The position numbers and the translations under genes were made by a program. The notes under the pieces were generated by a model, which saw only the letters and a program-made list of their open reading frames with translations, searched no databases and was not told the origin of the DNA. From Cellulosilyticum lentocellum DSM 5427 (GTDB taxonomy: Bacteria > Bacillota > Clostridia > Lachnospirales > Cellulosilyticaceae), in NCBI RefSeq assembly GCF_000178835.2, contig NC_015275.1, positions 1,633,001 through 1,697,000 of the forward strand: 64,000 nucleotides of DNA, written 5' to 3'. Positions within the stretch are counted from its first letter, which is position 1. Every line of letters begins with the position of its first letter. Positions 61,052 to 63,518 of this stretch are shown here, one piece after another.

Positions 61052-61816
61052 ATGATAAAAACAGAAAAAATATATTATGATGATTTGTATTTAACAACAT
61101 GTATTGCTACAGTAGTAGAAGTTAGTGAAATGGGTATTGTATGTGACCAAACGGTAGCTTTTCCAGAAGGAGGAGGACAACAGGCAGATAAAGGATGTTT
61201 TTTAATAGAAGATAATTTTAAGCAAAGGTTAAAAATTCTTTTTTTTAATGTAAAAAAAGGAGTAGGAGATGTTTTCTTGGAGCAAGACTTTCCAACTATA
61301 TCTGTTAATACTCCTATTTATCATTATATAGAGGTTGAATATCTAAGATATTTTAAAGTAGGAATGAAAGTGAAGATTTGTATAGATGTAGAAAGGCGAG
61401 CTAGATTAACTATTTCACATACAGCTATTCACCTTGTGCTAATGGCAATTGATAGAGTAAGGAAAGGAATAATAACGTATGTTAAAGGGGCAGATATTAG
61501 GGAAGATTTAGCTAGGCTGGATTTTTTTATACATGATAAATTGAATGATGATGAGATAATGAAAATTACAGAATGTGTAAATGAACTTATTTTAAACGAC
61601 TACAAAATAGAAACATATGCTCATGTTAAGCAAAAAGAAGCTGTTTACTGGAAATGCTTAGATTATGTATGTGCATGTGGAGGAACACACTTACCTTCTA
61701 CCAAATATATTGGTAATGTGCGTATCACTAAGAAAAGTAAAGGAAAAAATCTACAAAGAATTACAATAGAATTCCCTAATCATGTGTTACCAATGGAATT
61801 GTATCATAAAGATTAA
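61052..61816 (+). CDS. AlaX-type alanyl-tRNA editing protein
   Basis: 254 aa. Stand-alone editing domain of alanyl-tRNA synthetase: FPEGGGQQADKG, the zinc site HTAIH (ISHTAIHLVLMA) and Cys/His in CACGGTHLPSTKYIGNVRI. Such enzymes remove serine, glycine or other wrong amino acids from tRNA. It follows azlD by 10 bp and so belongs to the operon, suggesting protection from the amino acid made here. Confidence 0.9.
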   Translation: MIKTEKIYYDDLYLTTCIATVVEVSEMGIVCDQTVAFPEGGGQQADKGCFLIEDNFKQRLKILFFNVKKGVGDVFLEQDFPTISVNTPIYHYIEVEYLRYFKVGMKVKICIDVERRARLTISHTAIHLVLMAIDRVRKGIITYVKGADIREDLARLDFFIHDKLNDDEIMKITECVNELILNDYKIETYAHVKQKEAVYWKCLDYVCACGGTHLPSTKYIGNVRITKKSKGKNLQRITIEFPNHVLPMELYHKD

Positions 61817-61895
61817 GAAGGTTAAATTTTTATTAGGGATTCCACTTTTAGGGTACATATAATAGGTGTAAAAACATAACAAACAACTGCCATGG

Positions 61896-62308
61896 TATAA
61901 TCACCACAGTATCAACTTGACGAACTGACCGGGCTTGGACTAAGTCTCAATCTGCCTTGCAGGTACCTCTAGCTTTAAGGAAAATGTTCGCTTGTGTGCT
62001 GCAAGGGAGGCACCACTTATAAGTTGTCAAAAAACGTTTTTATAAAGTCTACAATTAAATAAAGTTTTAAACCAGAGTCTTAAAGTCTTAGTTTCCTAAC
62101 ATAAGGGTGCACCGGCTAAGACTTTTAAGAGCTCCTCACTCTTCGTTGAAACTTTTATAACTTATGCTATCAGGCCTTTGAAGTGCAAGGCGTACTGAGG
62201 AGCTATGACTATGCCCTTTTTTGGCAATAGCATAAGTAAGAAAAAGTGAATAATGAAGTGCTGGAGCATAAAAAGAGCCAAATGACAAATGTTGTTTGGC
62301 TCTTTTTG
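61896..62308 (+). ncRNA. Candidate structured noncoding RNA(s), unidentified
   Basis: About 400 bases with no coding frame. It opens with an extended -10 (TGGTATAAT, 61893-61901; another TATAAT at 61858) and closes in a strong terminator. Helices: CAACTT/AAGTTG (61913/62021), CCTTGCAG/CTGCAAGG (61955/61999), CTTAAAGTCTTAG/CTAAGACTTTTAAG (62079/62116), AGCTCCTCA/TGAGGAGCT (62130/62196), ACTTATGCTAT/ATAGCATAAGT (62160/62227). The last two interleave, as in a pseudoknot. It may be one RNA or two. I could not assign it to a known class. Confidence 0.55.
62271..62308 (+). terminator. Terminator of the structured RNA
   Basis: AGAGCCAAA/TTTGGCTCT perfect 9-bp stem, then TTTTT. It separates the RNA region from the ligase gene, whose own promoter must lie in 62309-62465. 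Confidence 0.9.
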
Positions 62309-62465: not shown

Positions 62466-63518
62466 ATGAAAAAGAAAAATGTATTAGTAATCTTTGGTGG
62501 GATGTCAAATGAATATGAAGTATCTTTAAAGTCAGCTGCAGCAGCGATAGAAAATATGGATTTAAGCAAATATAACTTAATGATGTTAGGCATTACACAA
62601 GAAGGAAAATGGTTAAGGTTTTTCGGTGATGTTGAAATGATAAGAAATCATACATGGCTTACTGATAAAAGTTGCGTAGAAGCATTTATATCACCTTCTA
62701 GGGAACAAAAAGGGCTAATTGAGCTAAGTCCAGAAGGATATAAGGTGACTGAGGTAGATGTAGTTTTTCCAATCTTGCATGGAAAATTTGGAGAAGATGG
62801 AACGATACAAGGCCTTTTAGAATTATCAGGAATTCCTTTCGTAGGGTGTAGGACATTAGCTTCGGCAATCTGTATGGATAAGGCAATCACTCATCGTTTA
62901 GTTGCAAAAGAAGGGATTAAAGTAGCTAGATCAATTGTTTTATATAAGGAAGATAGAAATGCAGAACAAAGACTTGAAGAAGTAGACATAAAGCTACCAG
63001 TTTATATCAAACCAGCAAAATCAGGGTCTTCAATAGGCATTACCAAGGTGTTTCATTTTGAACAGTTAGAGGATGCAATAAGTAAAGCCTTCTTAGAAGA
63101 TGATAAGGTTGTTATAGAGGAAAATATAAATGGATTTGAAGTTGGATGTGCCATATTAGGGAATGAAAATCCTATGATAGGAGAGGTGGATGAGATTGAA
63201 CTCATGGGAGATTTCTTTGATTTTAATGAGAAGTATATGCTTGCTAATTCAAAAATCCATATGCCAGCTAGAGTGGAAAAAGAAGTGGCACATCAGATTA
63301 AGAAAACAGCAATTAAAATATATGAAATCCTATCTTGTACAGGACTTGCCAGAGTAGATATGTTTTTAACACAAGGTAATGAAATCTATTTTAATGAAGT
63401 CAATACGCTACCTGGTTTTACAAGTAGCAGTAGATATCCTAAAATGATGTCTTCCATTGGTCTAAGTTACACAGATGTCATTACGAGACTAATTGAGCTG
63501 GCTTTAGAGGAGGTATAG
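62466..63518 (+). CDS. vanG: VanG-type D-alanine-D-serine ligase
   Basis: 350 aa, D-Ala-D-X ligase of the ATP-grasp fold. VIFGGMSNEYEVSLKSAAAA, FPILHGKFGEDGTIQGLLEL, KPAKSGSSIGITKV and NEVNTLPGFTSSSRYPKMM are present. The omega loop reads FFDFNEKYMLANSKIHMPAR, like VanG (D-Ser) rather than housekeeping Ddl. Product D-Ala-D-Ser lowers vancomycin binding. AAAGGGAG precedes the ATG. The next gene, a VanXY-like peptidase, starts 2 bases after the stop. Confidence 0.78.
   Translation: MKKKNVLVIFGGMSNEYEVSLKSAAAAIENMDLSKYNLMMLGITQEGKWLRFFGDVEMIRNHTWLTDKSCVEAFISPSREQKGLIELSPEGYKVTEVDVVFPILHGKFGEDGTIQGLLELSGIPFVGCRTLASAICMDKAITHRLVAKEGIKVARSIVLYKEDRNAEQRLEEVDIKLPVYIKPAKSGSSIGITKVFHFEQLEDAISKAFLEDDKVVIEENINGFEVGCAILGNENPMIGEVDEIELMGDFFDFNEKYMLANSKIHMPARVEKEVAHQIKKTAIKIYEILSCTGLARVDMFLTQGNEIYFNEVNTLPGFTSSSRYPKMMSSIGLSYTDVITRLIELALEEV

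Follow-up and report, generated by a model that had tools for sequence, protein, structure and literature searches.

A structured noncoding element precedes a VanG-type operon

We analyzed a 64,000-nt window of the Cellulosilyticum lentocellum DSM 5427 genome (NC_015275.1, positions 1,633,001 to 1,697,000), to which all coordinates refer unless stated otherwise; the genome is a single contig of 4,714,237 bp (4.71 Mb). Between a 254-aa ORF that ends at 61816 and the ligase ORF of a VanG-type operon, which starts at 62466, lies a noncoding element (61833–62307) on the plus strand. It opens with two promoter-like boxes, TTAGGGA (61833–61839) and ACATATA (61855–61861), separated by a variable 15-nt spacer, and closes with an intrinsic terminator, AAAAAGAGCCAAATGACA-AATG-TTGTTTGGCTCTTTTT (62270–62307), recognized from sequence and fold. 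The initial annotation of a noncoding stretch with a strong terminator was thus borne out, and the 5′ end of the RNA probably lies close to 61866. The element folds more stably than its shuffled versions (MFE −130.2 kcal/mol, z −4.1).

No family in Rfam 15—including 6S, raiA, T-box, ROOL, GOLLD and OLE—scored above its gathering threshold in the element, and the matches returned at a permissive E ≤ 10 were at chance level, far under those thresholds. The covariance-model search that had been suggested as a check hence yields no family that explains the element. Across the whole window, only the THF riboswitch reached its gathering threshold (aptamer RF01831; 2030–2131, minus strand; 86.7 bits). 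A literature search for the species together with noncoding RNA or ncRNA found no paper in the collection searched. Judged by its absence from the known-RNA catalogues searched, the RNA gene family described below is new.

The element belongs to a dispersed family of about 40 copies

With the 441-bp element as query, a genome-wide search returned 36 dispersed copies, whose matched parts share 72–84% identity with the window copy, and a covariance model of the core (R2) raised this number to 38. Two further, more divergent RNAs (L051 and L053) were found behind the same promoter, bringing the family to ~40 (38 plus at least two). This multiplicity had escaped the description as an unidentified structured RNA, which otherwise stood, both in its lack of an Rfam match at gathering scores and in the clear covariation presented below. 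Full-length copies account for 29 of the 36; among them, pairwise transcript identity is 75% at the median and reaches 95%, the highest values falling within a younger subgroup. Hairpins with T runs comparable to the window terminator are present in most copies, and their sequences differ. The unit is a predicted stand-alone gene for an RNA of ~440 nt, scattered through the genome. A second dispersed repeat of ~200–300 bp abuts many of the copies upstream or downstream (L017, L020–L023, L027, L029, L030, L038), and at L017 the RNA copy lies next to a chemotaxis-receptor-like reading frame that looks truncated, perhaps by an insertion.

The position upstream of the VanG-type operon, in the same direction and with a terminator at its end, would be compatible with a cis-acting leader or riboswitch of that operon. 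While true of the window copy, this position is incidental: elsewhere the family has unrelated neighbors, in either orientation, and in a hand count of 36 loci the closest ORF downstream was antisense in 23. Because of these unrelated neighbors and antisense ORFs, the RNA is not to be regarded as the leader of the VanG operon; we rejected the riboswitch or leader reading, to which we assign a negligible probability, as a position upstream of co-oriented, related genes is not conserved among the copies.

Copies share a promoter putatively read by an alternative sigma factor

The promoter-like start proposed in the initial annotation turned out to be common to nearly all copies, although it is not of the sigma-70 type (a scan found no such promoter at the start). 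In the 34 copies compared, the boxes are 91–100% conserved and the spacer is variable. The exact pattern TTAGGGA-N15-ACATATA occurs at 34 sites in the genome versus one for the reversed control, and at 0–4 sites in each other genome of the comparison set, drawn at the level of the family Cellulosilyticaceae. We infer that the boxes (61833–61861 in the window) are the target of an alternative sigma factor.

Elsewhere in the source genome, this promoter, exact or with one or two mismatches, precedes a DUF1659–DUF2922 gene pair, a YvrJ gene, a gene for a RepA_N protein and a tRNA-Gln gene, and a form with a 16-base spacer precedes a DUF6273 gene. The tRNA-Gln (CTG) gene has the pattern directly before it and an RNA copy shortly after it (L061 295–403; G000:C1:102095). 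In relatives, it precedes DUF1659–DUF2922–YvrJ operons, an Amidase_2 gene and a protein family without a Pfam or NCBIfam match. Members of this family begin with a motif like LKYYPELN..GSVNA and are found under the same promoter in several relatives (L092, L095, L096, L099, L101, L141, L143, L144); the member tested (L096) matched nothing in Pfam or NCBIfam, and G014 carries at least three copies.

In several genomes, a sigma-70 family gene (TIGR02937) lies directly upstream of the promoter and the DUF1659–DUF2922–YvrJ operon. The RNA promoter is the same as that of this sigma-linked operon, and because the promoters are identical, the RNAs look like members of a YvrJ-cluster sigma regulon. 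In the source genome, the sigma gene is located separately (L122; G000:C1:4133187–4133666, minus strand) and is intact in frame except for a single TAG at a glutamine that is conserved in relatives (DLEQECY; here DLK*ECY). This in-frame stop might leave the RNA genes silent in this strain. The sigma match in the congener G005 likewise contains one TAG. In B. subtilis, YvrJ is controlled by the unusual sigma factor SigO-RsoA (PMC8103513). Placing YvrJ genes under an unusual sigma factor would be common to both systems, whereas here the candidate is one single-chain sigma-70 family protein and the putative regulon includes RNAs.

Covariation supports a modular fold

RNAalifold analysis of the 29 full-length copies gave a structure of 74 pairs, in which 97.2% of cells are paired and 13 pairs show changes on both sides; neither value was reached in 500 shuffles, a test that ignores the relatedness of the copies, and slid versions of the structure drop to 34–47% paired. 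The comparative alignment for compensatory changes, proposed along with the initial annotation, thus supports the fold.

The 5′ module is bounded by an outer helix, P0, of ten pairs (GTGTAAAAAC, 61866–61875, with GTTTTTATAA, 62036–62045), four of which show both-sided changes and the last of which is mismatched in the window copy. The 5′ domain itself (61881–62029) is closed by P1 (ACAACT, 61883–61888, with AGTTGT, 62022–62027) and matches model R1 with E = 2.5e-36, the window copy being among the sequences from which that model was built. With a heterozygosity of 0.11, it is well conserved where present, and it is nonetheless an optional module that seven of the 36 copies do not carry intact: it is cleanly missing in four (L035, L042, L043, L044) and reduced or replaced in three (L039, L040, L045).

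The 3′ core, which model R2 matches at 62069–62144, is closed by P5 (CCAG, 62072–62075, with CTGG, 62261–62264), paired in 98.3% of cells and represented by TCAG/CTGA in G005. It continues with P6 (CTTAAAGTCTTAG, 62079–62091, with CTAAGACTTTTAAG, 62116–62129), where alignment pair 246/282 alternates between GC (14 copies) and AU (nine), and ends in P8 (62140–62259), a hypervariable hairpin of ~40 bp whose strands span ~62140–62195 and 62204–62259 and form 41 pairs in the window copy.

CsrB/RsmZ-type sponges of CsrA are trans-acting structured RNAs, sometimes multicopy, that carry GGA motifs. A sponge in which repeated loop GGA motifs titrate CsrA (or RsmE) would fit with the single csrA gene of the genome (E 4.9e-24) and with several conserved GGA positions, including one in the P8 loop. 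Yet GGA is not clearly enriched, unlike in CsrB/RsmZ, and only slightly exceeds the expectation from composition (6.6 vs 5.2 per copy), two of the conserved motifs (columns 69 and 120) fall within or next to helices of the predicted fold, and a long hypervariable rod with the loop-base pairing described next is foreign to that design. We consider such a sponge highly improbable.

A near-invariant plug and socket flank a hypervariable rod

Since the shuffles ignore relatedness, P8 was tested separately. In each copy, the ~57 nt that follow GAGCUCCUCAC form ~40 bp with the ~57 nt that follow UGAGGAGC, and none of 10,000 permutations of strands between copies paired as well, whether all copies or a divergent subset of 20 were considered. 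The apical loop of P8, 8–29 nt long (median 11) over 41 cores, presents UGAGGAGC; its complement, GAGCUCCUCA, immediately precedes the hairpin on the 5′ side. We refer to the helix between the two as P7, with the "socket" GAGCTCCTCA (62129–62138) as its 5′ strand and the "plug" TGAGGAGCT (62196–62204) as its 3′ strand. No part of the RNA varies less than P7, whose heterozygosity is 0.021 as compared to 0.37–0.40 for P8. Where its strands do change, they change together: to AACUCCUCA/UGAGGAGU in the divergent paralogue L053, to GAGCCCCUC/GAGGGGCU in the congener G005, and to AAGCUCCCA/UGGGAGCUU in the congeners G001 and G006.

Both interleaved helices marked in the initial annotation are therefore real components of the fold. 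The first, AGCTCCTCA (62130–62138) with TGAGGAGCT, is P7, with its both-sided changes in divergent paralogues and orthologues; the second, ACTTATGCTAT with ATAGCATAAGT, is part of the ~40-bp hairpin that outperformed 10,000 of 10,000 permutations. The two exclusive folds it envisaged, as in a switch, found no support in that form, as only 2 of 36 copies could pair GCTAT (62202) locally with ATAGC. A different exclusivity, between P7 and the long P8 hairpin, does follow from the conserved anatomy. P8 is favored over a nested P7 by a mean of 15.7 kcal/mol, and in all 36 copies. A perfect palindrome, AGGAGCTCCT, overlaps the socket of most copies (AAGAGCTCCT in the window copy; 62128–62138) and could by itself permit dimerization.

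As to how P7 forms, two answers appear about as likely as each other. One is pairing in cis by one of two routes: a pseudoknot for which P8 bends at an internal loop, or a hairpin that forms early during transcription and then gives way to P8, a folding switch. By either route the RNA would be a monomeric scaffold or a protein-binding RNA. That P7 and P8 both covary, that transcription completes both P7 strands ahead of the second P8 strand, giving P7 the chance to form first, and that P8 contains internal loops all speak for this reading, which we regard as possible but short of probable. Conversely, 0–3 nt link the P7 5′ strand to P8, which averages ~40 pairs, so that a pseudoknot needs a sharp bend, and a single hinge position was not found. 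The other answer is pairing in trans: in a straight A-form rod, an assumption on which the figure depends, plug and socket would be ~10 nm apart, and this distance across ~40 bp favors P7 pairing between molecules over pairing within one.

The socket sequence permits yet another reading, a regulatory sRNA whose CUCC-containing socket AGCUCCUCAC binds mRNA Shine-Dalgarno (SD) sequences in trans, with the SD-like loop (GAGGAG) as a built-in competitor. CUCC or CCCC is kept in all aligned relatives, and C-rich UCCC motifs that bind the SD are typical of sRNAs in low-GC bacteria, among them the multicopy LhrC of Listeria, whose five copies of 111–114 nt are controlled by the two-component system LisRK (PMC4132741). 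As with LhrC, several near-redundant sRNA genes of a low-GC genome would answer to one regulatory system and carry a CU-rich, SD-complementary motif; multiple copies (38 with a core) under a common promoter, and so presumably under common regulation, are indeed found here. The present RNAs differ from LhrC in having ~40 copies, ~440 nt, a sigma-type promoter, a long rod and a plug/socket helix. Against an SD-targeting role, the RNA is about four times as long as LhrC, and changes in its socket are matched by changes in its own loop, for which a strand acting purely as an mRNA seed would have no need. We hold this role to be unlikely, albeit less so than the CsrA sponge.

Congeners encode single, divergent relatives

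Three congeners (G005, G001 and G006) contain one divergent RNA each. That of G005, first found through its promoter, is a clear core copy (R2 E 1.9e-9, a score that is not independent, as the G005 sequence is among those from which R2 was built). Those of G001 and G006 were likewise found via the promoter and share it together with the plug, socket and hairpin architecture; neither was matched by models R1 or R2. In G007, which belongs to another genus, one decayed 5′ domain lies beside an apparent insertion sequence (E 1.8e-12). Searching 392 genomes sampled from the order with R1 found nothing beyond the source genome and this decayed copy of the sister genus; these searches for relatives detect sequence-level similarity, among the genomes searched. 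A DNA pattern derived from the 5′ domain had no match among the genome contigs searched and one in viral contigs, which sits in apparently coding DNA and was set aside as chance.

This distribution bears on whether the family is a selfish, non-autonomous dispersed element (MITE-like), with promoter and fold as by-products of its origin. The ~40 dispersed copies in one genome as opposed to one in each of three congeners, the degenerate remnants L055 and L057, and the younger subgroup with up to 95% identity are all in line with such an element. However, neither terminal inverted repeats nor target duplications are evident by eye in the aligned flanks, P8 and the terminators are free to change in sequence as long as they still pair, a pattern that selection for the RNA would produce, and RNAs of the same design are single genes in congeners. 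The VanG-type ligases of congeners are only ~45% identical to that of the source genome, so that the ligase locus is uninformative about empty sites. Overall, we find a selfish element improbable, ranking between SD targeting and the CsrA sponge.

A tentative model of sigma-triggered RNA assembly

Our working proposal is a new family of stand-alone, trans-acting RNAs of ~440 nt that are transcribed by a dedicated sigma factor and in which P7 pairs between molecules. We advance it tentatively and on a par with P7 in cis; SD targeting, a selfish element and a CsrA sponge are weaker alternatives to either. In this proposal, the dedicated alternative sigma factor would transcribe the ~40 RNA genes, the DUF1659–DUF2922–YvrJ operon and a few other genes. 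Each RNA would expose a P8 rod of ~40 bp, tipped by the plug loop UGAGGAGC and carrying the socket GAGCUCCUCA at its base, and, once the sigma factor switches the genes on, the RNAs would form head-to-tail dimers or oligomers. The near-invariance of plug and socket would let every copy dock with every other one. The full version of this model—sigma-triggered, self-assembling RNAs with ~40 copy-specific rods and a universal plug/socket, joined into mixed head-to-tail oligomers—is somewhat more doubtful still than trans pairing as such. The geometry of the rod and the invariance of P7 suggest homo-oligomers; on the other hand, the internal loops of P8 could let it bend, allowing P7 in cis, and P7 invariance could instead stem from a protein or mRNA partner, the 5′ domain also being well conserved.

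A precedent exists in GOLLD, ROOL and OLE, which form RNA-only oligomers through covarying intermolecular contacts (PMC12286853). Like these, the RNAs described here are large, intricately folded noncoding RNAs with a predicted pseudoknot-type pairing; they differ in lacking an Rfam match and evidence of a phage link and in occurring as ~40 diverged copies per genome, and their oligomers are a prediction.

A structured RNA of ~440 nt in ~40 diverged copies, apparently under one alternative sigma factor, is unusual when set against the five short copies of LhrC. The copies provide a natural alignment for structure and would make the family a tractable case for what large ornate RNAs do. They would also bring RNA into the YvrJ/DUF1659/DUF2922 regulon, which is poorly understood.
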